From positions 6,634,001 through 6,698,000 of the forward strand of contig NZ_CP068595.1 of the NCBI RefSeq assembly GCF_016772475.1: DNA of 64,000 bases, read 5' to 3'. The stretch comes from Paenibacillus sonchi (GTDB lineage Bacteria; Bacillota; Bacilli; Paenibacillales; Paenibacillaceae). Positions 8,271-61,297 of this stretch are shown here, piece after piece. Numbering within the stretch: position 1 is the stretch's first letter; every line of letters starts with the position of its first letter. Both the position numbers and the translations under genes were made by a program. A model generated the notes under the pieces. It worked only from the letters and a program-made list of their open reading frames with translations, was not told the DNA's origin and made no database searches.

Positions 8271-11200
8271 TCACAGATCATTGTCCACGATATTGTCGAA
8301 AGCTTCTTCCAGGCGCAGCAATTCTCCGCTGAGTCTGTGCCAGTGCTCTGCTGAATCACCCCCTTTCAGGAGTTCTGTGATCGCCGCTTCCCGTTCAGTC
8401 AGGCTCTCGCGCAGTGCATCCCCTGCACGTGACAATGCGGCTTCCACGCTGCCTGCATAGAAATCGAGAAGGAAGGATTCCAGCTCTTCGGCTGCTCCTG
8501 CTACAGATTCCTTCATCCAGGGCTCTGCCGCTGCCCTGACCTCATTCCGCCCTGCCCCTTCGAAGAAGTGGCGCGGCGATTTGAACCGGCTCCAGAGCGC
8601 CGGCCAGTCCAGCGGGTTCAGCCTGCATTCCAGCTTGGCCGGAGAAGGCCAGGGGTCCTTGTCATTCTGCAGGAACTGCAGGTCCTCTGCGGGTATGGAC
8701 AGTTCTTCTGCCGCAGCGGCCGCTGCCGCGTGCGCAAGCCGCCGTCCGGCCGCCTCCAGCCGCAGTGTGGTTGCCCACAGCTCCTGCTCCAGCTCACGCT
8801 GGACCGTCCGTTCCAGCTCTCTTCCGCAGGCTGTGAAGATCTCTTTCAGATTCCCGCCATCCTCACGGAGCAGCGAAGGATGGAAAGACTCCTGGAAGAA
8901 ACGGCCGAAAGCAAAGGAAATCCGCTGGCGGACATGATACAGCAATTCTTCGCCTTCCCGGCGCAAATCCCGGCCCGGCCGCTCCTCTCCGGCCAGCAGA
9001 CGCAGCCGCTGCTCAGCTATGCGGCGCTGGTCCTCCAGCTCCCGCATTTGCGCTTCACGCTGCCCGGCCGCCTGGCGGGCCTTCTCCTGCCACTCCTCTG
9101 TCCGGCGGCGGACTGTGCTGAGGCTGTCTTTGGCTGCGGCCAGAGACAGCCGCGGCAGCTCTCCTCCGGCAAAATCCGCCAGCGCCTGCTCAAAGCTGCT
9201 GAACCGGGAAGCCTCGTACAGCTCCCGGCTGCCAGCCGTTTTGCCTTCCAGTGCAAGCAGGCTGGAGAGGGAATACATTTGCGGCTTCATCAGGCCGCCG
9301 GCCCGCAGATTCTGCGCAACATGCTGCTGAACCTCCTGCAGCTCCTCTTCATCCGAGGCCAGATCGGAGGCATTGATGATAAAAAACATTTTATCCAGCG
9401 CGAAGCTGTCTTTGATCCGTCCCAATTGGGCCAGCAGGCCCCGGTCCGCCTTGGAGAAGGCATGATTGTAATAGGTTACAAAACATATCGCATCCGCATT
9501 TTTCATGTAACCAAAGGTCACTCCGGTATGACGTGCATGAAGAGAATCCGCGCCGGGGGTATCCACCAGTACAATCCCGCTGGCTGTCAGCGGACAGTCA
9601 TAGTAAAGGTCAATCCCCTGAATGAAGCAAGCCCGTGTCTCTTCGGCGACCAGGGTCCGGTATTCCTGCAGATCGACGGTACGCACCGTGCCAAGCAGCG
9701 CTTCGGCTTCCTGCCAGCCTGCGGCTGCCGCCCGCAGAAAACCGGCATGCGGGAGTGCCGAAGGGTGGAGTCCGCCAACCTGCAGCTCCGCGGCCGCAGC
9801 GGTCCAGGTCTCCGGCTGCGGAGCGGCCAGCTGCAGCACGCTGAAGGAATGGAGGATATCCTCCCAGAAATCCTCTCTGCTCTTCATGGTGACAACCGCG
9901 CTGGCGTGACGGAAGTCCCCTTCCGGCGCCAATATGCGGTTGACCGCCGCTGTGGCGGGATGCGGCGACACAGGCAGCACTTCTTCGCCCAGCAGGGCAT
10001 TGGCGAAGGAGGACTTTCCGGCGCTGAACGCTCCGAACAGCGCCAGGGTGAAGCGGCCGCCGGCGAGATCCGCCGCCCGCGCCGCCAGGCTGCGCGCAGC
10101 CGAGGCCATGGCCGGCTCGCGGCGCAGCAGCTCCGCCGCAGCGTCCAGCACCGCTGCGGCCTCCCCGAGCCGGCGGCGCCCGCCCGCCGGCGAAGCCGTG
10201 CCCGCCGCCAGGCCGGCGGCGGGGCTTCCAGCCGCAGCCTGGCGCAGCGGCTGGGGCTTGACCGGCGCGGCGCGGAGCGCGCCGGCCTGCGGGGTGACCC
10301 TCACCTCCGGCAGGGTGCCGGGGGTGAGGGTGCGGCGCGGCGGCAGCTGCGCCGCGAGCTCTGCCGCGCGGGCGTCCGCCGCGCGGTCAAGGGCAGCCAG
10401 CGCGGCCAAGGCGCGCGCCTGCCGCTGCAAGGCGGCCTCGCGGCGCGCCAGCTCCGCGCGCTGCCCGTCAAGAAGCGGCGGAAGCTTCGCCAGCAGCTCA
10501 TCGCCTGCACCCAGCGCGGCACGGCGGAACTGCGTCTCAATATCAGCCGCAAGCGTGCGGCAGAAATTAAGCAGCGCCTCCCCGCTGAAGCCGGTTCCCG
10601 GCTTGACGGCAGCCGCCAGTCCCTCGGGGCTGACCGCCGGGAACGCCTGCTTAAGCTGCGTCTCTGCCGCCTCATCCCAGACGCCGAGTCCTTCTCCCCA
10701 TTGCCGCACGAGCTGAAGCAGATGCCACTCCAGCTGGGCGGCAATCTCCCGGGTCTGCAGCGTATGCCACGCGGCCAGCCGCTTCTGCTGCTCCTTCTCC
10801 CGCTTCGCAGCCGTGAAGAGCAGCCCCTTGCGGAAGCCGGGACTGACACTTTCGGCGTAGGCTCCAGCCGCTTCCCGGACCTCTGCCGGCATCAGGCTGC
10901 TGTTCCCCAGCAGCGCATCCACACCGGTGCGCAGATTCAGGCGCGCCTCCTCCCCAGCCCGTCAAGTCTTACCCGTTCCTCCGCGCATTTCTGAAGCTCC
11001 TGCTCTACGGAATCCGGACCCTCCCCTCCTGCTTCCTCCAGCAGGCGTTCTCTTTCCTCCCGCTGCTCTTCTTCCCTGTACGCTCCCAGAGCTGCGTCAG
11101 CGGTGTGATAGAGAGAGCGGGACAGGCTGTATTGCAGCAGCTCTTCCCGCTGCTTCAGAAGGCTGTCAATCAGGCTCAGCAGATGCTCCCATTGATTCAG

Positions 11201-11962
11201 CGGATGCTCCTGGACCTTAAGGGAAGTAAAAAGAATACCTGCCGGGTGAATCCCCCATTGGCCGAAAGCGCTTTCCAGTTGCCGGCGGTACAACTCGATG
11301 GTGATCTCCTGTTCACGGTGTTTGTCAATCTGATTGATGATGAGATACAGCGGTTTGCCCCATTCACTGAGAGCTTTCGCAAAGGCGAGATTATTCTCGG
11401 ACTGCACATGATTGTAATCCATGACATAAAAAACGACATCAGCCAGATGGAGCGCCGAATGCGTTGCTGCCTGATGTCCGTTATCAGTGGAATCCACGCC
11501 GGGAGTGTCCATCAGAACCCCGTGGCTCCCCAGCAGCGGGACATCCTCCCACACGGAAATCGCTGCATATTCCCCGCCCTTGCGGCAAAAATCCTGGAGC
11601 TGCTCCGGCGTTGTCTCCCATGGTGACGGTTGGACTCCAGTCTCAAGGGCATGCGGATATAGTAGAACGCGGGGGGACCCGCTACGGATGGATACGATAT
11701 TGGCACTGGTTGGCACCGGACCTGACGGCAGGACCTGTTTGCCGCACAGCTGATTAATCATACTCGACTTTCCTGCCGAGAAATGGCCGCAAAAAGCAAA
11801 CGTCAACTCACCGGCAGCTGCTTTTGTCTCCAAATCTGTGATAATTTGCACTGCAGCAGGGTCTTCCCACTGTTCCAATAGCTTTCTAAGCCCAAGGTAA
11901 GACTGCTCTTTCAAGATCTCATTCGGCATTTCAGCCCGACCCGTTCCCACATTAACTCCCAC
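8271..11962 (-). pseudogene. dynA: Two-module dynamin-like GTPase, frameshifted (likely base-call artefact)
   Basis: DynA is a membrane-binding dynamin with two GTPase modules, linked in B. subtilis to membrane fusion and repair. Module 1 (11962 to about 10950) has P-loop CGHFSAGKSS, DTPGVDS and NQID. Module 2 (to 8271) has FGAFSAGKSS, DTPGADS and an NASD motif. The frame breaks at a C run at 10952-10955 (GGGG on the coding strand). One extra G turns the early stop into ...GLGEEARLNLRTGVDALLG and gives about 1230 residues, close to the 1193 of B. subtilis DynA. As written there are two pieces, 10937-11962 and 8271 to about 10922. GTG at 11962 is preferred as the start because TGGAGG lies eight bases before it. 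The module-2 linker (about 9930-10600) is unusually GC- and Ala/Arg-rich. Confidence 0.85.
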
Positions 11963-12249
11963 CTTCGCTGCCTCCAGTATCGTACGGTTATCAAGAATAG
12001 AATAATTACATTTTATCACCAGTCTGCCACATTTCAAATCAGAACAATTTACAAAATCCCCTATAATCCTCTACGAATCACGCCGGTCCGGTTGATACGC
12101 TTTACAAAACTGCGGATTACCTCCCTTATTTCTTCAGACATAGGGAGAGTATGAACTAACGTTTAGCAGAGCAATAGTTCGAGCCTATTTATAATTTGGG
12201 TCTTTGCGCGGAACGATAAGCAATAAATGTGATGGATATGTAATACCAA

Positions 12250-12279
12250 TTGCAATATAACACCTTATGGTGTTACTAT
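12250..12279 (+). promoter_or_regulatory. Promoter of the SRPBCC-arsR unit
   Basis: TTGCAA at 12250-12255 and TACTAT at 12274-12279 are separated by 18 bp, a sigma-A-like arrangement. The spacer is filled by the palindrome annotated separately. Confidence 0.5.
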
Positions 12280-12302
12280 AAACATGAAACCAAAAGGTGT
12301 TA
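12258..12302. promoter_or_regulatory. Probable operator of the ArsR-family regulator
   Basis: A perfect inverted repeat TAACACC-TTAT-GGTGTTA spans 12258-12275, between the -35 and -10 boxes. A third half-site GGTGTTA lies at 12296-12302. Repressor binding here would block RNA polymerase. The downstream ArsR protein is the natural candidate, giving autoregulation of both genes. Assignment is by position and symmetry. Confidence 0.6.
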
Positions 12303-12322
12303 TAAAAAACAGGAGGTACATC

Positions 12323-12747
12323 ATGCACACTGAAGAAACATTGCCCGAAATCCGCAAAACTATAGTCCTTAACGCTCCTATTGATAAAGTATGGAAGGCT
12401 GTTGCCACTTCCGGGGGCCTTGCCGCCTGGTGGATGGACAATACCTTTGAGCCCGTCTTAGGCCAGGAGTTTATTCTCCGGTCCGGACAATTCGGCGATT
12501 CGCCTTGCAAAGTCACCGAACTTGAGCCGCCTTACCGGCTAGGCTTCGATTGGGGAAAGACTGGCATCTCGCTTTTAAGTTGAAAGAGCTGGAGAACCAA
12601 CAGACAGAATTCACTCTGATTCATTCCGGCTGGGATGAAGCAAAGGTCACTGAATTTGGACAACCCCATTCGGTTATCCGCGGCATCATGAACGGGGGCT
12701 GGGAAAAAATCGTCAATCAAAGTCTTGTCAGCTATATAGAGGCTTAA
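12323..12747 (+). pseudogene. SRPBCC (AHSA1-like) domain protein, frameshifted (likely base-call artefact)
   Basis: The intact product would be about 141 residues of the START-like SRPBCC fold: IRKTIVLNAPIDKVWKAVA at the start and WW-x-x-x-TFEPVLGQEF in the middle, with FTLIHSGWDEA and GGWEKIVNQSLVSYIE at the end. Ligands of such proteins vary and cannot be read here. The frame breaks at GGGG (12552-12555): as written it ends early after FDWGKTGISLLS, while one more G gives FDWGKDWHLAFKLKELE. The ATG at 12323 is used because AGGAGG precedes it by six to seven bases. An upstream ATG (12284) overlaps the operator region. It is paired with the arsR gene four bases downstream. Confidence 0.8.
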
Positions 12748-12750
12748 GCA

Positions 12751-13077
12751 GTGTCTGCCCCAGCCCTCAAGCATGATGTGTTTCAGGCGATTGCCGATCC
12801 TACCCGCCGCACTGTATTACAGCTGCTCGCCCGCAACGATATGCCCATTGTGGCCATCTCGGAGAACTTCCCGCTTTCGCGGACCGCTATTAACAAACAT
12901 CTGCATATCTTGTCTGATGCAGGTCTTGTCAGCTCACGGCGGGTAGGCAGGGAGACAAGGTACAGGCTTCAACCAGAGCGGCTTATTGAGCTAAAAGACT
13001 GGCTTGCATTTTTTGAAACATATTGGGACGACAGATTGTCACTGCTGAAGGAATTTGTGGAGAACGATTCCCCATGA
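12751..13077 (+). CDS. ArsR-family winged-helix transcriptional regulator
   Basis: The 108-residue protein is a compact winged helix, VFQAIADPTRRTVLQLL at the start and ISENFPLSRTAINKHLHILSDAGLV as the recognition region, followed by a wing (SSRRVGRETRYRLQP). The metal-binding ELCVCDL motif of metal-sensing ArsR proteins is absent, so it is of the SRPBCC-associated type rather than an arsenic sensor. It starts with GTG three bases after the SRPBCC stop and is translated from the same message. It probably represses its own promoter through the TAACACC/GGTGTTA palindrome upstream of the unit. Confidence 0.85.
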   Translation: MSAPALKHDVFQAIADPTRRTVLQLLARNDMPIVAISENFPLSRTAINKHLHILSDAGLVSSRRVGRETRYRLQPERLIELKDWLAFFETYWDDRLSLLKEFVENDSP

Positions 13078-13095
13078 ATCCTACGGCAACTTTTT

Positions 13096-13280
13096 AAGTG
13101 GAAAAAGGTTAACTAATTTGCCGAAGTACCCTACCCTCGGGCAGATGAAGTGGAAAAGGGACACTAATTCAGCCCATTTTGCCATTGGAGCAGAAATGTG
13201 GCCCAATTAGATATACTTTTTCCACTTCACTCTCAGAATTTCTTAATTTCCGGAAAAATAAGTTCCCTTTTTCCAACTAG
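13096..13280. repeat. Four-copy repeat, two direct and two inverted, about 52-bp spacing
   Basis: AAGTGGAAAAAGG at 13096 and AAGTGGAAAAGGG at 13148 are followed by CTAATT-type words. The reverse complements ACTTTTTCCACTT (near 13215) and CCCTTTTTCCAACT (near 13267) repeat the theme on the other strand, again about 52 bp apart. The whole resembles a degenerate large inverted repeat. Confidence 0.6.
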
Positions 13281-13477
13281 CGCCTGCGAAGAAGACGGTA
13301 AAGACGGATCGCCCTATTCCTTCGCGATCGATTCGCAGCCGTTATGGATAGAAGATTCGGCTATTCCGCAGGACTAACGGACCCAAGATATCCATATTTT
13401 TTACACTGTATAATTTTCTAATACAATTAAATTAGGGGTAAGCTTCGCTTCCCCCAAAACAAATAAATTCTTTTCAG

Positions 13478-14666: not shown

Positions 14667-17419
14667 TTATTGTTTCGCAATCTCAACAAGAATATTATTA
14701 TTGAAATACATTATAATTTTATCATTTTCTTTGAGAGATTGCACGGGTAAAGTCGTGTCGCCTTGATGAATATATACATTCGGACCCGGAACAAAGCGGT
14801 AATTACTATCGGAAGCACTTGCGCGTTTTACCAGAATCTCATTTGTTCCACTCTCGTAACGCCAGAATACACGGCTCTGCTGGCTGAGTACACGGATAAT
14901 TGTCGACCCGTCCGAATCCTTGCGTACTTCCACACGGTCAGCTGTGGTCAGTGAACCCAGTGATGTGGTTGTAGAACCGTCACGGATAATTTTGACCCCG
15001 CCAGCCGCTGAGAACGTCTGTGCACCGCCTTTGTAATCCTTCAAGGTAAATGTTCCGGCAGCCGCATCTACTGCGGTCAGTTGGCCTGAATTAAGTTTTA
15101 CCGCCCGGAGAGCAAGCGGCGCACTTCCATTAAAGGTGATATTCACAAAATCCCCCACCTTCAAATCACCGATCTTGATGCTTTTTCCGCTTTCATCTGT
15201 CATAGGCAGTGTGTAAGTATTCAGTACTGTGGTTCCCCCGTCCATTTCACTCCCAGCTTATTTGCTGTTGCATCCAGAGTAGCAATCTCCAATTGCATGG
15301 ATGAGTTTACACGGAGAACCGATACCCCGCTCTGATTATCCGCAAGAACCGCAGTTACTGCACTGTCAAGTGCTACATCTGTAATGGTCGAAGAAGTACG
15401 ACCGAAGATTTCCACCGACTGCGGATAAGGCAATGTAACCTGCTGTGCATTGGCAAGCTTCAGTGTGATCGTTCTGTTCGCCACATTAACAGCGGTCAAA
15501 GTGCCGTCATATTTGGTGCTTGTTTCCACAGATAATGCGCGCTGGCCTGCAGCTACTACATCCACTTTGCGGCCTTCCGCAAGTCTGTAACCCATATTAG
15601 CCAGAGAAGTGGTCGTAGCTCCATCATAAGCAAGCTTCGTATTCGCATCGATCTTTACCAATTGTGCTTTGCCGCTGCTGTCCGTAACAGTCAGAAGCTG
15701 GGTTTTTGCACTGTAATCAACCACTGTTGCACCGGTGAACTGGCTGATCTGCCGGCTTAAAACTTCAATTTTGGTCACCTGGTCACTGCTGTTCAAGGTG
15801 AGCTGTACATTGTCTCCTGCCGTTGCATCAGCGACCAGATCTCCGATGCCCGGTGAGGCAACGCCGGGAATGATGACGGCTGGCGAGGTGCCAAGCAGAT
15901 TCACTTCACGTGTACCATCAGCCTTTTTGTAAACAATCGTTGAGTTTGTCAGTTCAGTAATCGCTCCCTGGACAGTACGTTCCACACCGGATGTTACTTC
16001 CACTGTCCGGATCAGATTATCTTTGACTGTATACTTGACGGCAGCCCCCGCCTTCAGATCAGCCGGCAGCAGCACTGCATTTTGCGAACTGAACAGGGTC
16101 GTGCCATCCTCCCATTTGAAGGTTTCAGTTGCACCCTCTGCTGTTTTGAACGTAATACTCTTTGCTGCATTATCTACACTTTGAATGGTTCCATTTGCCG
16201 TTTTATTGACAATTCCCGAGGTCACCTGTACTTTCACGATCTTGCCCGTACCGCTGAACGTTTCCCGAAGCAGAGCAATCTTGCTGGCAGCGGTAATCGA
16301 GGAGGCGGAAATGGCAGCACCGTTCACATCCACAAAGGCTGTGCTTCCATCATAGCTGTACTGGTCATATCCGGTTGGAGAATCCAGCCAGATTGTTCCT
16401 GGAGTAACTTTGGCAAATACACCTTCAATAGTTTGTACCTGCTGGACCGGATCTGTCACTTCTACATAAGCGGCATTATAGGTAGCTCCAATCACAGTCA
16501 CTTTGGTATATGGCTTAAGATCGCTAAAATTAATTCTGGTATCAACCGTACTGGTAAAGTAGGCGGTGCTGTAGGTTACATTGAATACAGATGTGCTGCC
16601 ATTGTTGAACAGCGTTAATTTCCCGTCCTGCATTGCGCTGATGGTCCCTTTGACAGTGTTGTCATAATCCAGCGTATTGTGTGCTTCTGCCCGGCTGAAG
16701 AAGGTGGCCAATTGCGCCCGGGTTACAGCACCCTGCGGATCAAAGCGGTTGCCGTCCAGACCGTTGGCCAGCCCCAGACCTACTGCAGCATTAATATATC
16801 CCCGTTTATTGGCGGCAACCTTCGCATCATCTGCGAACCCGGTAGGTTTGCCCGATACAACAGCGGCTTCCGTAGTTTTGCCGAGTGCCCGGATCAGGAG
16901 CTCTGCTACCCATTCACGGCTGGCTTTACGTTCTCCCCAGGAGGTTTTGAGGTTATCAGGCGCCATTTCTGCCGCTTTGTCCAGCAACCCCTGCTGGAAA
17001 GCAAGCACGACATAAGGCTTATAATAGTTGGTTACTTTGAAATCCGTTGGAAAGACTACATCGGAATCGCTTTGGACATTGCCTTGCAGCTTCATGAAAC
17101 GCAGCGCCATCAGCACTGCTTCCTGCTGGGTAACGGAATCCCCAGGACGGAACAGACCGTTATTACCTACAACAATTCCTTGAGAAGCCAGCTTATAGAT
17201 ATGTTTTTCGGCCCAGAAGCCATTTTTTACATCGGTAAAAATTCCTGACGCGGCTGTTGGAGCAGAACCATTATTTGCTCCAGAGGTTGCTGCCGGTGCA
17301 GCAGTTGCAGCAAAAGCCGCACCTGCTCCGCCGAGCACCATCGTGCCGGCCAGAATTGCGGCTGCCGCTTTGCTGGAGTAAGTATGAATTAAACGTTTTG
17401 ACCTTTTTTGCCCGGACAA
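14667..17419 (-). pseudogene. SLH-domain surface protein, frameshifted (likely base-call artefact)
   Basis: The intact product would be about 917 residues: a basic signal peptide (KRSKRLIHTYSSKAAAAILA), then three S-layer-homology motifs (IFTDVKNGFWAEKHIYKLA, a middle copy around FPTDFKVTNYYKPY, and FADDAKVAANKRGYINAAV) that anchor to wall polymers. About 650 residues of beta-rich repeats containing recurring TVKGTISAMQDGKLTL-like units follow. The frame breaks at CCCCC (15235-15239; GGGGG on the coding strand): one extra G joins VKWT to GGTTVLNTYTLP. TTG at 17419 is chosen because GAGAGGGG is nine bases upstream. The ligand or enzymatic role is unknown; it is probably an envelope structural protein. 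Confidence 0.8.
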
Positions 17420-17499
17420 TAGGTTATTCCCCTCTCTATGGATCAATTTAGATAGACTGTAGTACTTCGCCAGTCAGCAAGCCTATTCCTGCATTTCCC

Positions 17500-26419: not shown

Positions 26420-27528
26420 ATGACATTGACGACAAGAATCGTGGTCAAAATCGGCAGCAGCTCGCTTACCGGACCTGAAGGCGGGCTGAACCGTGAAGCG
26501 GTTGCTTTCTTTGCCGCTGAAATCGCCGGGCTGCAGAAGGACGGATGTGAAGTGCTGCTGGTTACCTCCGGAGCTGTAGCTGCCGGATTCCGGGGCATCG
26601 GATATCCCGCACGTCCCAAGCTGCTGCATGAGAAGCAGGCGGCGGCAGCGGTGGGCCAGGTGATGCTGATGCAGGCTTATCAGGAGGCTTTTGCGGAATA
26701 TGGCATTCCTACCGCGCAGATCCTGCTGACAAGGACCGACTTTTGCAGCCGACGGGCCATGAATAATGCTGTAATGACGGTAGAAGAGCTGCTCCGGCAG
26801 GGAGCTGTGCCCATATTCAACGAAAATGATACCGTTTCGGTAGATGAGCTGAAATTCGGTGATAACGACACCTTGTCCGCGCTGGTGGCCAATCTTCTGA
26901 AAGCTTCCCATCTTCTCGTTCTGACGGATATGGACGGCTTGTACAGCGGAGATCCGCGCAAGCATCGGGAAGCCACGCGGTATGAGCGTGTTGAGGAGAT
27001 TACCCCGGAGATTTATGCCATTGCCGGGGAGCAGGCTCCAGTGTAGGCACTGGCGGCATGCGCTCCAAGATCGATGCGGCCAAAATCGCCACACGCGGCG
27101 GAGTCCCCGTCTTTGTAGGCAGAGCAACCGAACCCGGCGATTTGCAGCTGGCAGCGGCAGGCACCGGCAAAGGTACCTATTTTGACACCACGCTCTCTTC
27201 CCTGCCGGTTAAGAAACAGTGGCTCGGCTTCATGTCCACCCCGCTGGGCTCCCTGTATGTAGATGAAGGTGCAGTAGAAGCGCTGCTCCATGGCGGGCAC
27301 AGCCTGCTGCCGGTTGGGGTTAAGCGGATCGAAGGCAGCTTTCATTCCGGTGATGTGGTAGAGGTCCTTGGTCCCGACGCCAGGCTGCTCGGGCGGGGAA
27401 TTGTGAATTACGACGACTCCCAGCTGCGCACGATCCAGGGGCTGCCCAGCAGTCAGATTGTGCCGAAGCTGGGCGAGGTTCACCGGCTGGAGGTCATCCA
27501 CCGTGATGAATGGATTACGTTGCGCTAA
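26420..27528 (+). pseudogene. proB: Glutamate 5-kinase, frameshifted (likely base-call artefact)
   Basis: ProB phosphorylates glutamate, the first step of proline synthesis. The intact product would be about 369 residues: amino-acid-kinase domain (VVKIGSSSLTGPEGG, FNENDTVSVDELKFGDNDTLSA, LTDMDGLYSGDPR) and a C-terminal PUA domain (about 275-365). The frame breaks at GGGG (27026-27029). As written it stops just after AIAGEQAPV, while one extra G gives AIAGGAGSSVGTGGM followed by RSKIDAAKIA. The first piece is 26420-27046; the second is open from about 27031 to 27528. It is the first gene after the proline T-box, 22 bp before proA. Confidence 0.9.
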
Positions 27529-37271: not shown

Positions 37272-38573
37272 TTACCGCTTCAGCAGGCCCTCAAAGGTCT
37301 CCTGCGCCTTGCGGCGGATTTGTTCCTCATCCAGCGTCAGGCACTGCCCATGCTTCACAACCTGCTTGCCGTCCACCCAGACATGCGCAACATCCTTGGC
37401 GCTTGCCGAGTATACGGCATGGGACAGATGATCCGTATGCGGCAGGAAATGCGGCTGGTCGATATCCAGGGCAATGAAATCAGCCTTCATTCCCGGAGCA
37501 AGCCGTCCGACTCCTTCCAGAAAAATTGACTGTGCGCCGTATTCAGTCGCCATCAGCAGCGCTTCCGGTGCCGGAACCGCCGTCGGGTCACCGCTCACGC
37601 CTTTGTGGATCAAGGCGGCAAGACGCATCTCCTCAAACATATCGAGATTATTATTGCTCGCCGCGCCATCGGTGCCAAGCGATACCGTGACTCCTGCACG
37701 CAGCAGCTCCGGAACCCGGGCTACTCCGCTCGCCAGCTTCAGATTGCTGCCCGGGTTATGGGATACCCCTACATGGTAACGGGCCAGAATCTCAATCTCT
37801 TCATCGTTTAAATGAACACCATGAGCGACCAGGGACGGGCGGGTGAACATTCCCAGCTTCTCTAGATGCGCAACCGGACGCAAGCCGTAATCGGCCGCAT
37901 TCTGCTCAACTTCCCGCCGGGTTTCCGACATGTGGGTATGCATAGGCAGATCCAGATCATGGGCGGCTTGCACAAACTTCATGAAAAACTCCGGCGGACA
38001 AGTGTACGGGGCATGCGGTGAAATCATCGTTGTGATTCTTCCGTCCGCTTTTCCGTGCCAGTTCCGCGCAAAAGCAACCGCTTCCGCCAGCTTATGGTTC
38101 TGCACGTCCTCCGGACAGAGCCCGATCACCCCGCGCATCAGCACCGCACGGATGCCCGATTGCTCGGAAACCTCGGCCACACGGTCCATGTGGTCATACA
38201 TATCCAGGAAGGTGGTTGTGCCGCCTTTCAGCATTTCCAGTACAGACAAGGCGGTGCCCCAATAGACATCGTCTCCGGTGAATTTTTCTTCCATAGGCCA
38301 CATTTTTTCCTGCAGCCAATTCTGCAGCACCATGTCATCCCCGTAGCCGCGCAGCAGGGACATCGCCGTATGACCATGGGTATTGACCAGACCCGGCATG
38401 AACAGCAGACGGCTGCCGTCAATGGTCTGAGTACCTTCTTCTATGACAGGCTTGACTTCTCCTATGTATGTGATGAGATCCTTTTCTATAGTCATATAAC
38501 CGCTAAGGACAGGCTGCGCCGTTCCCGGCACCAGAAAACGCCCATTTACAATTACAGTTTTATTGCTGCTCAT
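37272..38573 (-). CDS. mtaD: Amidohydrolase, MTA/SAH deaminase type
   Basis: The 433-residue protein is a metal-dependent amidohydrolase that probably deaminates 5-methylthioadenosine or S-adenosylhomocysteine. Metal and active-site residues are seen in VNTHGHTAMSLLRGYGDDM (HxH), MHTHMSETRREVEQN, HGVHLNDEEIE and SLGTDGAASNNNLDMFEEM. The ATG at 38573 starts the family-like SNKTVIVNGRFLVPG; the frame extends 24 codons earlier into rex. It overlaps the end of rex by 14 bp. Substrate assignment rests on family resemblance, and related guanine/chlorohydrolase-type enzymes are alternatives. Confidence 0.82.
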   Translation of the reverse strand: MSSNKTVIVNGRFLVPGTAQPVLSGYMTIEKDLITYIGEVKPVIEEGTQTIDGSRLLFMPGLVNTHGHTAMSLLRGYGDDMVLQNWLQEKMWPMEEKFTGDDVYWGTALSVLEMLKGGTTTFLDMYDHMDRVAEVSEQSGIRAVLMRGVIGLCPEDVQNHKLAEAVAFARNWHGKADGRITTMISPHAPYTCPPEFFMKFVQAAHDLDLPMHTHMSETRREVEQNAADYGLRPVAHLEKLGMFTRPSLVAHGVHLNDEEIEILARYHVGVSHNPGSNLKLASGVARVPELLRAGVTVSLGTDGAASNNNLDMFEEMRLAALIHKGVSGDPTAVPAPEALLMATEYGAQSIFLEGVGRLAPGMKADFIALDIDQPHFLPHTDHLSHAVYSASAKDVAHVWVDGKQVVKHGQCLTLDEEQIRRKAQETFEGLLKR

Positions 38574-39212
38574 CTTCCGCCTCGTCCTTTCCATCATGCA
38601 AATAATAAGCCAAGCTCTGCAAATCAGTGGTAAAATCAGCGGCATGAATCCGGATGTTGGCAGGCGTTTTCAGAATCACCGGTGCAAAATTAAGGATGGC
38701 CTCGATGCCTGAATCCACCAGGATATCTGCAACGTTCTGCGCTTCGCTGTCCGGTACAGTAATAATGCCGATGCGGATGCCCTGCTCGCGGATTGTGCTC
38801 CCCAGCTCTTCCATAGGCTGAACCGTCAGCGAGTTGATTTTCTGCCCGATCTTGGGGGATAGGAATCAAAAACCGCGGTGATTTTCATTGTGTCCTTCAA
38901 ATAGGCATTGTAATTGGATAAAGCGTGTCCAAGATTACCTGCGCCCACGAGTGCCACATTGATCTGCTGGTCAAGCTTCAGGATATGGCGGATTTTCTCA
39001 ATCAGATACGATACATCGTACCCGATGCCTTTTCTGCCGAAATCGCCGAAATAGGCCAAATCCTTGCGGATTTGCGCCGGATTCAGATCCAGCTTCTGTC
39101 CCAGCTCCTGCGAAGACACGGTGGAGATTTCACGCTTCTGGAGATCGTTCAGGAAACGCAGGTACACAGGCAGCCTGCGCACCACGGCCTCTGATATTTT
39201 ATCCGATTTCAT
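38560..39212 (-). pseudogene. rex: Redox-sensing repressor Rex, frameshifted (likely base-call artefact)
   Basis: Rex binds DNA when NADH/NAD is low and represses fermentation and respiration genes. The intact product would be about 217 residues: winged helix (VSSQELGQKLDLNPAQIRKDLAYFG, residues about 36-60) and Rossmann NADH domain (VALVGAGNLGHALSNY ... GIRIGIITVPDSEAQNVADILVDSGI). The frame breaks at GGGGG (38854-38858; CCCCC on the coding strand). As written it ends in PPRSGRKSTR, whereas one extra C gives DSYPPKIGQKINSLTVQPMEELG. AGGAGG precedes the ATG at 39212. The downstream mtaD-type gene overlaps it. Confidence 0.9.
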
Positions 39213-39581
39213 ATTTTCTCCTCCTAAAAGTATTGTTAGCGTAACCTTAAATTTAAAGAGCTGCAGCTAATTAGTAATCATTCCCGGCACCCCTACAAAA
39301 CAGAAGGCGCCTAAGGAATGATCCTCTGTGCAACATCCATGAACAAACTAGCCGGCCTGCGGTGCTCTAACAACGGCATTTCTGCCGTTATTCCTGGAGA
39401 AACCAGCCTTCAACGCTCCAACAACAGCATTTCTGCCGTTATTTCTGGAGAAACCATCCTTCAACGCTCCAACAACGGCATTTCTGCCGTTATTTCTGGA
39501 CTAGCCGGCCTGCGGTGCATTTCTTCTCCGCAGCAGAAAAATCATAATTTCTAAATAATAAAATTTGAACGTATAGCGGAA
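39213..39581. other. Intergenic repeat array between rex and dinG
   Basis: Only repeats are visible: three hairpin units at 51-bp spacing flanked by direct repeats (39346-39517). The rest is AT-rich with no gene. Confidence 0.6.
39346..39517. repeat. 51-bp hairpin repeat array (same family as 25231-25313)
   Basis: CAACGGCATTTCTGCCGTTA-type hairpins begin at 39371, 39422 and 39473, exactly 51 bp apart. The second copy has CAACAGC, one substitution in the left arm. A direct repeat CTAGCCGGCCTGCGGTGC flanks the array at about 39348 and 39500 and is itself a divergent form of the spacer. Spacers read TGGAGAAACCAGCCTTCAAC-like. Confidence 0.75.
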
Positions 39582-42442
39582 TCAGGACACACTGCCGTCT
39601 TCAAGCCATTCGGCAATACGCGGGACCATCTGATCGGTGAGCATATGCTCCATTTTGGGTCCAGGGAGCGAGTACAGGAAGTACTTTCCATAATAAGATT
39701 CGATAACCCTGGTATCATATACAATAACAATCCCCCGGTCCTGTGCAGTGCGAACCAGTCTGCCGAAGCCCTGTTTGAACCGGATGACCGCCTGGGGAAC
39801 CGACAGCTTCATAAACGGGTTCTTTTTCTGCGCCTGCAGCAGCTCAGCCTTCGCCTCTGCAAGCGGATGGTTAGGCGGTTGAAAGGGCAGCCTGACAATA
39901 GCCAGACAGGTCAGCGCCTCACCGGGAATATCTACCCCTTCCCAGAAACTGCTTGTCCCCAGCAGCACGGAGGCGGCACTGTCCTGAAAACGCCGGATCA
40001 GCTTGCTGCGGCTTCCGCCCTCTACACCCTGACCCAGAACAGCGATGTCCCGGGAGGCAAGCGCCTCCTTCAGAGGATCATAGACCTGGCGCAGCATTTT
40101 ATAAGATGTGAACAGCACCAGCATCCGGCCCTGTGTCGCCACTGCAGCCTCCGCCAGCGAATGCACCAGCTTATCGACAAACCGGGCATCCCCCACGCTG
40201 CCTTTGACACTGGGAAAATCGCGCGGGATAACGAGGAGTGCCTGTTCACGATACTTAAACGGCGACGGCAGCAGCGCTGTCATCAGACGCCCCTGTTCTG
40301 CGGACTCGCCCAGGCCGAGATTGTCAATCATGAACTGAAAGGACTTATCCACGGACAATGTGGCCGAGGTCAGGACAATGCTTTTCTTTTTATCGAAAAA
40401 CAGATCCTTGAGCTGGGCACTGACATCCACCGGAACAGCATACAGCTGCAGCGATTTCCCGCGGTAATTCCCGCTGCCCTCCATCCAGTAGACAATATTC
40501 TCGTCGTTCAGATTCATAAAAAACCTTACCTGCTCGCGGATCGAAGCCAAATCCTTGAAAAGCCCGCCGATATCGGTCACCAGACTGTCCGAGGACGACT
40601 GGCTCTCCGATTCGCGCATTTCGCTGAGCATCTTGTCGCCCCTGCGGATAATTTCGCCCAGGCTCAGGTTCAGGGTGTTCTCCAGTGCGGCTATTTCTTC
40701 CCAGCCCTTGGGCTGAGCGCCCGGCAGAAGACGCGTAACCAGCTGTCCCGCTTCACCTGCTGCGGCATCGCTGCGCTCAGGCAGCAAGGCAAACAGCTTG
40801 TCGCTAAGCGCATCCCAAGATTCCTTAACCGTAAGCAGATCCGGGTAGATCCTGTCGATCACCCCGCTCCATTCAGCCGCCTGCTCGCTGCCTGAGGACT
40901 GCAGGGTCTGGCGCAGAACGGGCAGCTGTCCGCTTTTGCTGTCCTTATAGAGGCGTGTAAGCGTATGGGCTACCGTGAAGTATTTCATCTGCATGCCCAG
41001 ATGCTTGCCGGCAATGTCCTCCAGATGATGGGCTTCATCAATAACAAGGTGCTCATACGCAGGAAGCAGCTGATGGCCGGCCTTGACGTCTGCGAACAGC
41101 TTGGAGTGATTGGTTACTACAACATCAGCTATTCCGGCTTCGTGTTTGGCCCGGTGGTAATAGCATTTGCGGAACCATGGGCAGGAACGTCCGAGACAAG
41201 AATCCGTGTCACTGGCCACGGTCTCCCAGAAATCACCGCCGCGTCCGTTCAGATTCAGCTCCTCGTCATCCCCTGACTGGGTCTGTGTCAGCCATACAAT
41301 CATTTGCGCTGCAGTAAGCGCTTCTTCCCGGGACTCGCGAAGTCCTTTTTATTTATTTTATGTTCAAACTTGCGCAGACACAAATAGTGTCCTCTGCCCT
41401 TGAAGACCGCAGCCTTAAACGGGAATGGCACAACATTCGTCAAAAGCGGGATGTCGCGCTCACGCAGCTGGTCCTGCAGGTTGATGGTATGCGTACTCAC
41501 CATGACCTTCTGTCCCGAGCGCACACTGTGGTAGATGGCCGGAAGCAGATAGCCCAGCGATTTGCCGGTGCCCGTTCCCGCCTCAATTAAGAGATGCTTG
41601 TCAGTTTCCAGTGCAGTCATCACCTCATGGATCATAATTTCCTGGGCTTCACGGCTTTCGTATTGGGGCAAGGTCTCCTTAAGCCGCAGGGTCACCTCTT
41701 CCATATATTCCTCAAAGGTAATATTCTGCACAGGATTGCCGGTTCCTTCCTCTCTGGGAGGCATCAGCTCTGTCCAGTCTCCTACAGCCAGCGCCAGCTG
41801 GCGGTAAAAGGTCAGCTCACCCTCAGGCTGGAAGGTCTCCATTTCCCGCTCATGCAGCAGCCCGTCAAAATACCAGGCAAGATCGCTGTCCTCGTCCGCA
41901 AACAGTTCATTGAGGCGCTGGATGGTCAGCAGGGGCAGGCTGTACAGCTCCTCCAGGCATTTCAGGAGCACCAGCGCAGTTGCAAGGGCATCGCTGTCCG
42001 CCTGGTGCGGACGCTCATGCGTGAGGCCGAAATGGGCGCTTACAGCTCCGAGCTGATAGGTGGTCAGTGACGGAAAACATATCTTGAGGAAATCAATCGT
42101 ATCCAGAATCCGGCCCTGGAACGGCAAATAACCGCACCGGTCAAGCGCATTCTGCAGAAAATGAAAGTCAAAAGCCACATTGTGGCCGACCAGCACAACA
42201 TCGTCGAGCAGCGGAACCAGCTCCATCATCATCTCATCCAGTTCAGGGGCGTCCTGCACATCACTGTCCGTGATTCCGGTCAATCCCGTAATAAAGGGGG
42301 GAATCGGCGTTCCGGGCTTGACGTAGGAACCATACACCCTGGAGATGGACCGGTCTTCTTCTATAATGGCAAGGCCAACCTGGATGATCTCACCCACGGA
42401 TTGGGTTCCTGTTGTTTCAAAATCAAGCACGGCAAATTTCAT
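39582..42442 (-). pseudogene. dinG: DinG-family exonuclease/helicase, frameshifted (likely base-call artefact)
   Basis: Intact, the product would be about 953 residues: N-terminal DnaQ-like 3'-5' exonuclease (FAVLDFETTGTQS, NVAFDFHFLQNAL, HQADSDALA) fused to an XPD-like superfamily 2 helicase (Walker A EAGTGTGKSLGYLLPA, DEAH in LVIDEAHHLED, C-terminal FKQGFGRLVRTAQDRG). Four cysteines (YLCL, then CLGRSCPWFRKC) are placed like an iron-sulfur cluster. The break is at CCC (41327-41329): as written the first part ends in SPGKKRLLQRK, while one extra G on the coding strand gives SPGEEALTAAQMIVWLTQ. The pieces are 41300-42442 and 39582-41303. Confidence 0.9.
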
Positions 42443-52098: not shown

Positions 52099-52304
52099 AA
52101 TTTGTTTCTCAGCCCCCTGTATGATCTTGCCTTCTGTTTGCCCCTATGTTATCGTAAAGACGTTTTGAAGACAAATCTTTTTTAGAATATAAGGAATTTC
52201 TCCAGGTCCCGGACAAACCGGTAAATGCAATAATCTGACAAAAAGCAACCTATAAAAAGGGATACTAATACACTATGCCCTAAACGGGCCAGGCGAGGGA
52301 TTAC

Positions 52305-56785: not shown

Positions 56786-56790
56786 CAGAT

Positions 56791-57345
56791 CTACGCCTCC
56801 TTTTTAACCTCTGTATTGGGGATGATCTCACCCAGATAGACCCAGTCTCCATCAATTTTGGTTTTGTACTGGTCCAGGGGCTTGGGGGCTACAGCCAGAT
56901 TTTTGCCGAGCTTCGTATACCTGGCTCCATGGCATGGGCAGTGATATTCATCCGGATACGCCTTGTCATTGTTCCAGCCCACCGTACAGCCCAGATGCTT
57001 GCAGATTGGTGAAAGCGCATAAATTTCTCCGTTCTCGTCTTTGCGGATCCACGCCGTCAGCGTAGCTGTACTGGCATACCATCCGTCCTGTTGGGGAAGT
57101 TCGAAGGTGAACTCTTGAGGGACATCGGTAATCTTGGCAGTCTCGGCTACCTTGATGAATTCCCCCGCACCTTTCTTATGTAATACCGGGTCCACCGCGA
57201 AACGGACCATGGGCAGAATAGCACCTGCTCCCATAAATGCCGTTGCCCCTCCCAGTGTATACGTTAAAAACTGCCGCCTGGACATCTCTTTCAGGCTGGG
57301 AGGTCCTTGTGGAATTGACTCGTGCTCGTTATTATGGCTGCTCAT
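56791..57345 (-). CDS. qcrA: Menaquinol:cytochrome c reductase Rieske iron-sulfur subunit
   Basis: The 184-residue protein has a twin-Arg-like MSRRQFLTYTLGGATAFMGAGAILPMV membrane anchor (residues about 24-50) and the Rieske [2Fe-2S] motifs CKHLGC and CPCHGARY near 125-150. The ATG at 57345 is preferred over the frame opening 18 codons earlier. It starts the qcrABC operon of the respiratory chain. Confidence 0.95.
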   Translation of the reverse strand: MSSHNNEHESIPQGPPSLKEMSRRQFLTYTLGGATAFMGAGAILPMVRFAVDPVLHKKGAGEFIKVAETAKITDVPQEFTFELPQQDGWYASTATLTAWIRKDENGEIYALSPICKHLGCTVGWNNDKAYPDEYHCPCHGARYTKLGKNLAVAPKPLDQYKTKIDGDWVYLGEIIPNTEVKKEA

Positions 57346-57569
57346 ACGGTGTGTAACCCCCTTTTCACTTTTGAGAAGGCACCTGCAGTGTAAAAACAAT
57401 GCAATTTTCTGTAAATAATCCGTTTACAATGATAATTATCACATGTCACAAGTTCAATCTAATCATAGCTTAGCCTCCAAAACCCGTCAAGAATATTGTC
57501 TAAATTGTGACGACCCCATTTTAAATTTTCTTTATAAATTGTTGATTTTTTGTCACATTTAGATCTGTT

Positions 57570-57998
57570 TCATTTGTTCCATAACGCCTCGATTTCATCT
57601 CTGATGCAGCTTCTCACCGGCTTTTGCCGAGAAGCCTCAATGTCAGGCAGGGAGAGAACTAAATCGCTTTCAGCAATCCCGCTCCCGGCCAGAGAGATGT
57701 CCGCTGACAGCACAATCACAGACTGGAAACCGCTGGATTTGACTTTTCGGCAAATCTCATTTATATAAGCTGCGCTTTCGGCCCCATTGTACTGTAAAGC
57801 CGGGTAGGTCACGATACGGCCCTGATATGGTTTTTCCACGAGATCCAAAAAGTCCCGCAATCTCTCCAATGCCTCCGCGGCTTCAGGCGGACTCTCCATG
57901 CCGCTAAGTCCGGTATACGGGAGCAGGCAGGTATCATAGTACTTCCGGTTCTCCAGCCAGCTCTCGGCAGTAAAATCACTGAATTTCATCACACTCAC
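57570..57998 (-). CDS. ypiF: DUF2487 protein (YpiF-like)
   Basis: The 142-residue soluble protein (MKFSDFTAESWLENRKYYDTCLLPYTGLSGME...) matches the DUF2487/YpiF family, found just upstream of the qcr operon in Bacillus. It shows a conserved FSDFTAESW start and QSVIVLSADISLAGSG. The frame starts with MSV, and the ATG (MKFSD) two codons later is equally plausible. Function unknown. Confidence 0.8.
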   Translation of the reverse strand: MSVMKFSDFTAESWLENRKYYDTCLLPYTGLSGMESPPEAAEALERLRDFLDLVEKPYQGRIVTYPALQYNGAESAAYINEICRKVKSSGFQSVIVLSADISLAGSGIAESDLVLSLPDIEASRQKPVRSCIRDEIEALWNK

Positions 57999-58040
57999 CC
58001 TTTTTTATGATATAAGTTCCTTATGAGATTTCATTGTAAC

Positions 58041-58067
58041 AAAAAAGAAATGCGCCAGGCGCATTTC
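58041..58067 (-). terminator. Terminator of the IDEAL protein gene
   Basis: GAAATGCGCC-TGGCGCATTTC stem followed by TTTTTT on the minus strand, 12 bp after the stop. Confidence 0.9.
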
Positions 58068-58078
58068 CCGTATTATTC

Positions 58079-58258
58079 TTAGGCCAGACTTTTCAATTCC
58101 TCCGTCAGATTGCGGAACGCCGTCTTATCGCCGGCAGCCAGCGCCGTGTCGATCTCCCGGTACAAGATGTCGGTACGACGCTTTCGCAGCGCTTCATCCC
58201 ACACCATTTCTGCCGCAAGTCCTAGCATCACTTCATAGGTAGCCTTCATTTTGTCCAT
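58079..58258 (-). CDS. Small IDEAL-domain protein
   Basis: The 59-residue protein ends in an IDEAL motif, YREIDTALAAGDKTAFRNLT followed by EEL, matching the IDEAL consensus I-D-x-A-L-x-x-x-D-x-x-x-F. In B. subtilis this motif sits at the C-terminus of the larger YpiB. The ATG at 58258 has GGAGG eight bases upstream; the longer GTG frame would place the site too close. It lies 18 bp after the gamma-carbonic-anhydrase-like gene, upstream of ypiF. Function unknown. Confidence 0.75.
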   Translation of the reverse strand: MDKMKATYEVMLGLAAEMVWDEALRKRRTDILYREIDTALAAGDKTAFRNLTEELKSLA

Positions 58259-58276
58259 TCGATACACCTCCGCTGT

Positions 58277-58783
58277 TTAGATCCTTCCATATTCACTTGC
58301 TTTAAGTACATAGCTCTCGCATGTGCGGGCCATCCTCTGAAGATCCTGCTCCGTTAATTCACGAATCACTCTGGCAGGTGAACCGAGTGATAGGGTATAG
58401 GGCGGAATGATTTTGTTTTCGGTTACAATAGAACCGGCTCCTATTAAAGCATATTCACCAATCTCTGCACCGTTCAATACAATTGCACCCATTCCGATTA
58501 ATGTGCCTTTGCCTATCCTGCAGCCATGGATGATTGCAGAATGGCCGACCGATATGTCATCCCCCAATACCAGCGGCAGTCCTTCAGCCACATGCCCCAC
58601 GGTACCATCCTGGATATTGCAGCGGTCGCCGATCATTACCGGAGCCAAATCCCCCCGGAGTACGGCGTTGAACCAGACACTGGACTGTCGTCCAATTCTT
58701 ACGTCACCTACCAGCTTCGCACCCTCCGCCACGTATACAGACTCGTCAAGCTGCGGTATGTAGTTCCCATAACCAATCCGCAT
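58277..58783 (-). CDS. Gamma-carbonic anhydrase family protein
   Basis: The 168-residue protein is a left-handed beta-helix with hexapeptide repeats (VGDVRIGRQSSVWFNAVLRGD, IGMGAIVLNGAEIGEYALIGAGSIV). Metal-ligand histidines are visible in GHVAEG, VGHSAIIHGC. Such proteins (YrdA/PaaY-like) can be carbonic anhydrases, but activity is often unproven. The ATG at 58783 follows AGGGGGAGAA, 18 codons inside the longest frame. It lies 14 bp after a hypothetical gene. Confidence 0.88.
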   Translation of the reverse strand: MRIGYGNYIPQLDESVYVAEGAKLVGDVRIGRQSSVWFNAVLRGDLAPVMIGDRCNIQDGTVGHVAEGLPLVLGDDISVGHSAIIHGCRIGKGTLIGMGAIVLNGAEIGEYALIGAGSIVTENKIIPPYTLSLGSPARVIRELTEQDLQRMARTCESYVLKASEYGRI

Positions 58784-58797
58784 TCTTCTCCCCCTGC

Positions 58798-59886
58798 CTA
58801 CTTCAGCTGCTTCGGCACAGCCGCCTCCAGCCCCCACGGCGTCATCATAACCACCGGCCCCTCCGGTGTTTCACCGAGGCGGAGCATTCCCAGATGCAGC
58901 ATCATCCGGATGATGCGCTGTTCCAGAATCGAAGCGGCATCATCGTAATAAAACGGCTTGACCAGCCAGCCCAGACTCTCTACAAGTGAGGCCACGGCAA
59001 CCCACTTCCCCGCACTTACACTTATCCAGTATACGAGGGACGGCAGATTTGGTATAGCGCCTTTATACAGTTTTAACCAAAAGGAGTATAACTGTATCAG
59101 CTTTTCAGATTTCCCCTGTTCGAGCAGCGTTTCTCCGGCCAAAGTCAGCTTCAGACGGTAGCCTGCCTCGGTAGTCCAGCGGCGGTGGCGGGCGTAATCC
59201 ACGATCAGAGCCAGTCTGGGCGGGTAATGCTCACAGGCTCTTCCATAGCCGAATCTCCAGCCGCCTTTGCCGAGAAGAGGTTCAGGAATTTGGATCGCGT
59301 TCATGACCCCTTGCTGATACCTTTTGTGCAGCGCACCTTCCTGGTTCAGCTCAGGCTCATTCTCTTGGATATAGCGAAGAAAGAGCAGCAGGTCACCCGC
59401 AAGCATCTCGCCTTCACTCCGGTAAATCGCAGGCTCTCCGCCGGGAGGGATTTGTTCCCTCAGATATTCGCCCATCCGTTCGCGGAAGCGGGTTTTCAGA
59501 TCCTGCGGAACCCGGAACAAATACCTGCTCTGCTGAGAAGCGCCGCTAAAGAGCCAACCGCTGTTTTTGAACCTTGCCACCATCTCCCGGTACCCCCCGC
59601 TTTTGCCGGGAACTGTATCGAAGGAAGCCTGCCTCGCCGCAGCCAGCAAATCCTCAAGACTGAACTGGCTGCGTTCGTCGAACAACAGCGTATTGAGAAA
59701 CCGCAGGTCTTCAGGAGCGCATTCCCGGATATGGGATTCCATAAACTGGCGGCTCCCCAGTGTGATCAATATACTCTGAATCAAATCATGTTTGGAATTC
59801 CGTTTGCAATCACACTGGTAGCGTCCCGCAATGGCGGTAAGCTGACTAATGTCTGCAAAGTTAAGCATATCCGCCAGATTCATCAT
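58798..59886 (-). CDS. Conserved-type hypothetical protein, 362 residues
   Basis: The protein is soluble and helix-rich: ADMLNFADISQLTAIAGRY, CDCKRNSKHDLIQSIL near the start and several hydrophobic helical blocks later (LALIVDYARHRRWTTEAGYRLKLTLAGETLLEQ, and VAVASLVESLGWLVKPFYYDD). Parts resemble winged-helix or helicase-associated modules, but I cannot assign a family. GAGG lies six bases before the ATG. It is upstream of the gamma-carbonic-anhydrase gene on the same strand. No catalytic motif is seen. Confidence 0.7.
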   Translation of the reverse strand: MMNLADMLNFADISQLTAIAGRYQCDCKRNSKHDLIQSILITLGSRQFMESHIRECAPEDLRFLNTLLFDERSQFSLEDLLAAARQASFDTVPGKSGGYREMVARFKNSGWLFSGASQQSRYLFRVPQDLKTRFRERMGEYLREQIPPGGEPAIYRSEGEMLAGDLLLFLRYIQENEPELNQEGALHKRYQQGVMNAIQIPEPLLGKGGWRFGYGRACEHYPPRLALIVDYARHRRWTTEAGYRLKLTLAGETLLEQGKSEKLIQLYSFWLKLYKGAIPNLPSLVYWISVSAGKWVAVASLVESLGWLVKPFYYDDAASILEQRIIRMMLHLGMLRLGETPEGPVVMMTPWGLEAAVPKQLK

Positions 59887-59948
59887 TTATCGCCTCACCG
59901 TTTTACTACCATTATGGGAAATACTGCCCTTTTTATTCCTTATCGCTC

Positions 59949-59976
59949 AAAAAAAATAACCCGAAGGGTCGGGTTA
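59949..59976 (-). terminator. Terminator of the histidine phosphatase gene
   Basis: AACCCGACCCTTCGGGTT hairpin followed by ATTTTTTTT on the minus strand, overlapping the stop region. Confidence 0.8.
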
Positions 59977-60561
59977 ATGCTGTTGTTGCAGAATATGGCG
60001 TGTACAATTGTACAGCAGCGGATTCCATTCCTTTTCTTTCTTCTCCAGTATTGTAAGCGAGAGATTGCCGAGACGCTCTGAGTATTTATCCTTATATAAG
60101 GCGATGTAGAGCTGGGCCAGAAAGCCTCCATGCGAGATAACAAGTAGGTTCTTATCCGGGTAAAGCGCTGCAATTTCCTCCATAAAAGCCAAGGCCCGCG
60201 CTTGAAGCTGCTCATCCGACTCCTGTCCAAGCGGCAGCAGATTCCAGTCCTTGCCCCATTTCTCTTCACGCTGTGCAGCAGTCATCCCCTCAACCTGCCC
60301 ATAGGCCCGCTCACGGATGCGCTCATCCGGTTCAAGCAATGGAATGCCCAGCTTGGCCGCGATAATTTTGCCTGTCTCCGCAGCACGGGAAAGACTGCTG
60401 GTGATACAGTAGTCCCAACGGTAAGTTTCCTGCAGAAGCCGTTCCCCCAGCATCTCAGCCTGACTCCGGCCTTCATCGTTGAGCGGAATGTCGCTTTGTC
60501 CTTGTATCCTGCCTTCCGCATTCCAGTCCGTCAGCCCATGGCGGATTAAGCCAATCAGCAT
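59974..60561 (-). CDS. Histidine phosphatase family protein (phosphoglycerate-mutase-like)
   Basis: The 195-residue enzyme has the catalytic LIRHGLTDWN (phospho-His) near residue 6 and a second histidine in LLVISHGGFLAQ near 150, with the arginine and glutamate region ITSSLSRAAETGKIIA and RERAYGQVEG in between. Substrates of this superfamily vary (cobalamin phosphatase, sugar phosphatases), so none is assigned. The ATG at 60561 with AAGG eight bases upstream is preferred over GTG codons upstream. Confidence 0.85.
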   Translation of the reverse strand: MLIGLIRHGLTDWNAEGRIQGQSDIPLNDEGRSQAEMLGERLLQETYRWDYCITSSLSRAAETGKIIAAKLGIPLLEPDERIRERAYGQVEGMTAAQREEKWGKDWNLLPLGQESDEQLQARALAFMEEIAALYPDKNLLVISHGGFLAQLYIALYKDKYSERLGNLSLTILEKKEKEWNPLLYNCTRHILQQQH

Positions 60562-60668
60562 CACAATCACCTTGCCCTTCCCTTATGTTTGCTTAATAAT
60601 GTAACACGAATGAAAACAAATGTCTTCTTTTTGAAATGTTAATTAGGCTTGTCCTGTAAGATCACAAC

Positions 60669-60704
60669 AAAAAACCCGCTTTACTTGGGAGTAAAGAGGG
60701 CTTC
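60669..60704 (-). terminator. Terminator of the sigma/anti-sigma operon
   Basis: CCCTCTTTACT...AGTAAAGCGGG stem followed by TTTTTTG on the minus strand, directly at the end of the anti-sigma gene. Confidence 0.85.
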
Positions 60705-61297
60705 TTAATGTCTGCGGTAACGGTTCAGCCGGTACAGCAAAAATACCGACAGGCCTACTCCGAGCATGGACAGCATCATCCAATATTGCGGATGGGTTGG
60801 ACCCATGCTCACCACGAGCGGTTCAATGATCCCTCCGCCCGATTCAGAGTCAGGATACGAGGAGGACCAATCCATAGACAAGCCGGCTACACCGGTCTCC
60901 ACAATTCCGCTCTGCGCCACAGTAGTATTGGCGGGTGTTTTGAACATCGTAAAATACAGAAAGCTGGATATAAAAACAGCCAGAAAACAGGCAATCCAGA
61001 GACTGAGCCGGCGACGGAAGGCTGTAGAATTCCCGGCAGATTTACCATCCCCGGCATAAGCCAGGGACTTTCCAGATAAATCCGCTCCATCACCCGAAGA
61101 TTCACAGCCTCCGCACGTTCTTCGCTGATTTCAATCTGTGTTTCCCGCATAAGCTCACTGCTCTCCTGCCACAACGCCCATTCAGCGGAACAGTAGGGAC
61201 AATTCACAATATGCCTTTCAAGCAAAATCCGCCTAGGGTCCGTGGGGGGAGCGTCCCACAAAAGCGGAATGGAATCCTGCGCTTCCCTGCAATTCAT
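60705..61297 (-). pseudogene. Zinc-finger anti-sigma factor, frameshifted (likely base-call artefact)
   Basis: Intact, the product would be about 197 residues: an N-terminal zf-HC2/ZAS motif (HIVNCPYCSAEW, with CREAQDS before it), VMERIYLESPWLMPG, a transmembrane helix (LWIACFLAVFISSFLYF), an outside segment, and a last membrane helix (YWMMLSMLGVGLSVFLLYRL). It should hold the adjacent ECF sigma factor at the membrane. The break is at CCCC (61048-61051; GGGG on the coding strand): as written it runs into VNLPGILQ, while one extra G gives MPGDGKSAGNSTAFRRRLS. It follows the sigma gene by five bases. Confidence 0.85.

Follow-up and report, generated by a model that had tools for sequence, protein, structure and literature searches.

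Seven interrupted genes in the window

The window analysed here, a stretch of 64,000 nucleotides (G000:C1:6634001-6698000), is part of a 7.78-Mb assembly in three contigs (G000) whose relatives are Paenibacillus. It contains seven genes that are each divided by a frame break, namely dynA, a gene of the SRPBCC/AHSA1 type, a gene for an SLH-domain surface protein, proB, rex, a dinG-type gene and an anti-sigma factor-like gene, and the subject of this work is whether these breaks are mutations of the organism or errors of the deposited sequence. When 4 kb of the window were searched against 61 genomes of the genus, G000 counted in, matches were found in 60, the nearest genomes being G028 (about 97% identity across the window), G015 and G031. 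In all seven cases two open reading frames (ORFs) in different frames match successive parts of one protein that is encoded in a single frame in G028 and likewise in G015 and G031, so that the seven breaks reported in an initial annotation are indeed present. The G028 homologues of all seven genes were compared with Pfam.

The gene dynA encodes a bacterial dynamin-like GTPase and lies on the reverse strand (8271..12037), with its N-terminal part at 10937-12037, its C-terminal part at 8271-10922 and a short C run at 10952-10955. The two pieces match positions 30-278 and 329-1117 of NCBIfam NF052648. dynA is one frame in G028 and a single frame over residues 1-1251 in G015, G031 and G035; in G048 only residues 665-1251 are matched. 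The SRPBCC/AHSA1-type gene on the forward strand (12323..12747, two frames, short G run at 12552-12555) and the gene for the SLH-domain surface protein on the reverse strand (14667..17446, pieces 15221-17446 and 14667-15245, short C run at 15235-15239) are both one frame in G028, G015, G031, G035 and G048. Neither the N-terminal piece of the former, taken from the window alone, nor the pieces of the latter on their own gave a match in NCBIfam; their G028 homologues match AHSA1 (PF08327) and carry SLH (PF00395), respectively.

Glutamate 5-kinase is encoded by proB on the forward strand (26420..27528), again in two frames and with a short G run at 27026-27029. The segment 26420-27046 matches residues 1-203 and the segment 27058-27528 residues 214-369 of the 369-residue G028 protein. 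Positions 2-200 and 199-362 of TIGR01027 are found in two frames in G000 and in one frame in G028, G031 and G015, and the only other match to this family in G000 is weak, partial and common to the relatives. The gene for the redox-sensing repressor, rex, lies in two frames on the reverse strand (38560..39212, short G run at 38854-38858), where 38826-39212 matches residues 1-125 and 38560-38814 residues 134-217 of the 217 residues of the G028 protein. In Pfam terms, one piece holds PF06971 together with positions 1-45 of PF02629 and the other positions 57-97 of PF02629. The dinG-type exonuclease/helicase gene, also in two frames on the reverse strand (39582..42442, short G run at 41330-41332), is divided into a piece with RNase_T and positions 4-63 of DEAD and a piece with positions 93-140 of DEAD and Helicase_C_2. 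In all ten relatives compared with G028, rex is a single frame over residues 1-217 and dinG a single frame over at least residues 1-950 of 953. Between the two genes (39364-39500) lies a 51-bp tandem repeat of 2.7 copies, the unit of which includes a AACGGCATTTCTGCCGTT palindrome; DNA matching the window in this region occurs, among the matches listed, at other places in G000 and in several close relatives.

The anti-sigma factor-like gene (zf-HC2) completes the set on the reverse strand (60705..61297, two frames, short C run at 61049-61052) and is one frame in G028, G015, G031 and G048. The match to zf-HC2 (PF13490) is weak and below the cut-off both for its N-terminal piece and for the G028 homologue. 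The run coordinates of the initial annotation hold for five of the genes and have to be corrected for two, since the dinG break belongs to the G run at 41330-41332 instead of a C run at 41327-41329 and that of the anti-sigma gene to 61049-61052 instead of 61048-61051.

Shortened runs at the seven sites and beyond

The start-to-stop spans of the seven genes (dynA 3767, SRPBCC 425, SLH 2780, proB 1109, rex 653, dinG 2861 and anti-sigma 593) all exceed a multiple of three by two, as had been claimed. Compared with G028, G015 and G031, the window lacks one base at every one of the seven sites, in agreement with the claim that none of the breaks is an insertion and that each involves one base only. 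The extra base of G028 sits inside the run, which is sometimes interrupted in other genomes (in rex of G015, for example). G048 is likewise one base longer than the window at all seven sites, G027 at the three that aligned (proB, rex and dinG) and G035 at five of six; dynA of G035 has other gaps and does not give a clean comparison. Each of the seven genes is one open frame in G015 and G031, and the same is true of further relatives whose compared stretch contains the gene, save for the partial dynA match in G048. Every break is private to G000 among the genomes compared. G028 was considered as the odd genome and rejected, because G015 and G031 equal it in length at all seven sites and because it has few private events of its own. 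Over all aligned DNA of the window, coding or not, 21 one-base shortenings and 11 lengthenings were counted relative to G028. Two further C runs that are short in comparison with G028 and G015 occur at 52112 and 58789, outside the conserved coding set.

The census was extended to block 1 (G000:C1:6434001-6898000, 464 kb, window included) and block 2 (G000:C1:1050001-1250000, 200 kb surrounding rpoB), together 664 kb; with a stretch around mutL these are the sampled parts of G000. Differences between G000 and G028 in both blocks were polarised with G031 as outgroup, and events without a clear polarity were left out (in block 2, six for G000 and 12 for G028). As coding we counted ORFs of at least 70 amino acids with third-position-biased substitutions relative to the outgroup, a definition that leaves fast-evolving, very conserved and unique genes outside the census. 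Private frameshifting insertions and deletions (indels) of G000 numbered 58 in 52 of 287 conserved genes in block 1 and 17 in 15 of 135 in block 2, that is 75 events, 69 shortenings and six lengthenings, in 67 of 422 genes. A one-base loss within a run of at least four of the lost base accounts for 58 of the 75. Events private to G028 amount to seven in four of 312 genes (block 1) and four in three of 149 (block 2), in total 11 in seven of 461. The 56 conserved genes of the window contain the seven events and none further in the polarised census, and this is no enrichment over the surrounding rate (7 observed, 12.0 expected, P(<=7) = 0.089).

The losses follow run length. In the sampled blocks, 79 G/C runs of at least four bases were shortened and eight lengthened (P = 8e-16), and for A/T runs of at least five the numbers are 45 and eight. 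Relative to G028, G/C runs were one base short in 21 of 2066 cases at length 4 (1.02%), in 30 of 466 at length 5 (6.44%) and in 27 of 83 at length 6 (32.53%), whereas in the reverse direction G028 was one short in two of 2082, three of 460 and one of 45. A/T runs were one short in 13 of 385 cases at length 6 (3.4%), in 21 of 139 at length 7 (15.1%) and in five of 28 at length 8 or more. In one place the assembly is out of keeping with these numbers: a run of 21 C stands at G000:C1:2142874-2142894, and no G/C run in either sampled block is longer than seven.

The neighbouring base matters as well. With both strands pooled, a T precedes 60 of the 79 lost C runs and 1,075 of the 2,525 kept ones. 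C5 runs were lost in 26 of 195 cases following T and in four of 271 following A or G, C4 runs in 15 of 896 and six of 1162 (P = 0.013); for C6 runs the difference is not significant (18 of 42 following T, nine of 34 otherwise). T before the C run, or A after the G run, is found at all seven sites of the window. T runs of at least six bases have a C before them in 23 of 39 lost and 195 of 502 kept cases.

The initial annotation had stressed that none of the breaks lies at an A/T run. This is correct for the seven genes and does not extend to the assembly, where 19 of 66 coding one-base shortenings are A/T (16 of 52 in block 1 and three of 14 in block 2) and 47 are G/C. Since A/T runs elsewhere in the blocks are also shortened, their absence from the window is a small-sample effect, and given the 36 G/C and 16 A/T cases of block 1, seven out of seven G/C sites have P = 0.076. 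As support for an artefact the restriction to G/C is thus weak and partly due to chance, all the more since a mismatch-repair mutator produces a G:C bias too (PMC4702332).

The broken genes include some that a cell requires. In G000, rpoC is split between two frames (profile positions 2-1009 and 1007-1146), gltX lies in two pieces and ligA in three; all of these genes are single frames in G028, G031 and G015. An intact second copy of rpoC, ligA or gltX was not found in G000, and its additional gltX matches are weak and lie in genes that the relatives also possess. All three genes are essential in Bacillus. A living cell could not lose them, and their interruption is therefore the strongest argument for an artefact rather than biology. 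The earlier argument, that joint loss of proB, rex and dinG is rare, is reasonable but carries less weight than a broken rpoC. A gene for a topoisomerase subunit A is broken near its end and ribD is broken as well; rpoB and mutS are intact, the latter as one frame, and rpsC, identified in block 2 by genome search, keeps its domain in an extended frame (230 versus 222 amino acids). Of the broken genes, 30 of 52 in block 1 and 10 of 15 in block 2 were covered by the NCBIfam search.

Mutator, decay and rescue as alternatives

A true mismatch-repair mutator, with an inactive mutL and genes that were really broken by slippage at homopolymers, had to be tested because mutL is itself broken in G000 and because mismatch-repair-deficient lines also hit G:C runs. 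The mutL gene lies outside the window in three pieces (G000:C1:5903050-5904916); the three relatives searched have it in a single frame. In the published account of such lines, all 108 of 108 indels fell into single-nucleotide runs, 96.3% of them in G:C, with a rate rising with run length (PMC4702332), and to this extent the described mutator spectrum resembles that of G000. The same account gives insertions as 3.32 times as frequent as deletions and, per genome and generation, 0.14 base changes versus 0.022 indels, 98.8% of the base changes being transitions (PMC4702332); for a mutS-defective Pseudomonas 97.5% transitions are stated (PMC4316635). Neither the preference for insertions nor the many transitions are seen in G000. 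With 79 shortenings against eight lengthenings at G/C runs of at least four, the direction is reversed, and the G000 branch shows fewer polarised transitions than that of G028 at an almost equal transition/transversion ratio (3317 transitions and 1477 transversions, ratio 2.25, compared with 4086 and 1859, ratio 2.20). The mutator explanation fails on these two points. Furthermore, mutS is a single frame, one of the two breaks in mutL belongs to the same class as the other losses, being a short G6 run, and a mutator cell could not carry broken rpoC, gltX and ligA. We therefore consider a mutator highly unlikely.

Ordinary independent decay, by which all or some of the seven would be true recent pseudogenes, agrees with the private nature of each break among the compared genomes, which leaves recent loss conceivable for any single gene, with the minority of block events that do not lie at runs and with a raised nonsynonymous share in broken genes (see below). 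It does not explain why all seven lie at G/C runs, with no insertion and nothing larger than one base, nor why their number fits the background of the assembly. The frames are intact in the relatives, and codon differences, counted with G028 as the sole comparison genome, are mostly synonymous in rex (nonsynonymous/synonymous 0/9), dinG (9/49), SLH (11/48) and dynA (18/62), so that constraint on these four genes is evident. Relaxed selection downstream of the break was not detected, the ratios for the broken genes being equal before (283/719) and after it (400/1010) and in both cases above that of unbroken genes (1653/5412), although this test is insensitive to very recent loss. Decay is thus extremely unlikely as an explanation.

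It could also be that the breaks are real and that the cell copes with them, full-length protein being made through ribosomal frameshifting or transcriptional slippage at the G/C runs. Slippage at runs is known in principle and would account for survival with a broken rpoC. On the other hand, runs of three to six G/C are short for efficient slippage, some 16% of the sampled genes, RNA polymerase included, would depend on such rescue, and the same genes are unbroken in the relatives, which renders this scenario barely conceivable. The combination of the two, a mutL-deficient lineage that truly carries the frameshifts, those in rpoC, gltX and ligA included, and survives through frameshifting or slippage at short G/C runs, is just as hard to credit.

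Probable under-calling of homopolymers and what it would mean for this assembly

Judged from the sequence comparisons, the seven breaks are almost certainly errors of the deposited assembly and not mutations of the organism. The consensus would under-call the length of homopolymers, chiefly G/C runs of four to six and A/T runs of six to eight bases, and would do so preferentially at C runs after a T (on the other strand, G runs before an A); each base missing from coding DNA would shift the frame and make a healthy gene look like a pseudogene. Homopolymer under-calling had been favoured by the initial annotation and is corroborated by the rate over 664 kb, the dependence on run length, the predominance of shortenings and the interruption of rpoC, gltX and ligA. 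The breaks are spread over both sampled blocks and are indifferent to gene function, essential genes included. The source is probably a base-calling or consensus error in an assembly that was presumably built from long reads only and left without short-read polishing, and the preference for a neighbouring base might identify the sequencing platform.

Comparable errors have been described. According to one report, systematic nanopore errors consist mainly of indels in homopolymers, by which frames are shifted and pseudogene counts inflated (PMC8011154). The errors addressed there with Homopolish resemble ours in these respects and in being recognised via close relatives; unlike them as far as they are described in that source, the events in G000 are almost all shortenings. 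In the long-read assembly treated in a second report, false deletions made up the majority of indel errors and were most frequent behind four to five identical bases (PMC12007338), and the gene-fragmenting errors profiled there with Kastor are, like the present ones, mostly false deletions and linked to particular k-mers.

Several observations speak against an artefact as the whole explanation. In the test set of the latter report deletions were more frequent at A/T than at G/C (PMC12007338), whereas in the coding genes of G000 G/C prevails (47 over 19). The second break in mutL (L235:9202) consists of a one-base difference that lies in no homopolymer. Of the 75 private events, 17 are something other than the loss of one base from a run of at least four, and some of them may be real mutations. 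Private events are numerous in the outgroup G031 too, the branch of which is longer: block 1 has 50 of them, in both directions (19 shortenings, 31 lengthenings), spread over 26 of 299 genes, and block 2 has seven in five of 102 genes (six shortenings, one lengthening). With very small counts, proB (5/7 nonsynonymous/synonymous), the SRPBCC gene (4/5) and the anti-sigma gene (3/7) give no strong sign of constraint. Finally, the nonsynonymous share is higher in the broken genes, taken together, than in the unbroken ones (683/1729 versus 1653/5412, odds ratio 1.29, P = 2e-6); for these codon counts and for the transition counts a slightly laxer gene filter was used in block 1, giving 426 genes (359 unbroken and 67 broken). 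This difference may stem from a minority of true pseudogenes among the broken genes of the assembly, or simply from faster-evolving genes.

Under-calling of homopolymers is an established phenomenon, and the contribution of this work is to demonstrate it for this assembly. If the sequence were read literally, one in six or so of the conserved genes in the sampled parts would be pseudogenes, which on the scale of the whole genome, extrapolated from 664 kb of 7.78 Mb, would correspond to the order of a thousand genes. Claims about gene loss or metabolism derived from this assembly would be wrong, and it would be a mistake to infer a mutator phenotype from a mutL that is broken in such an assembly.

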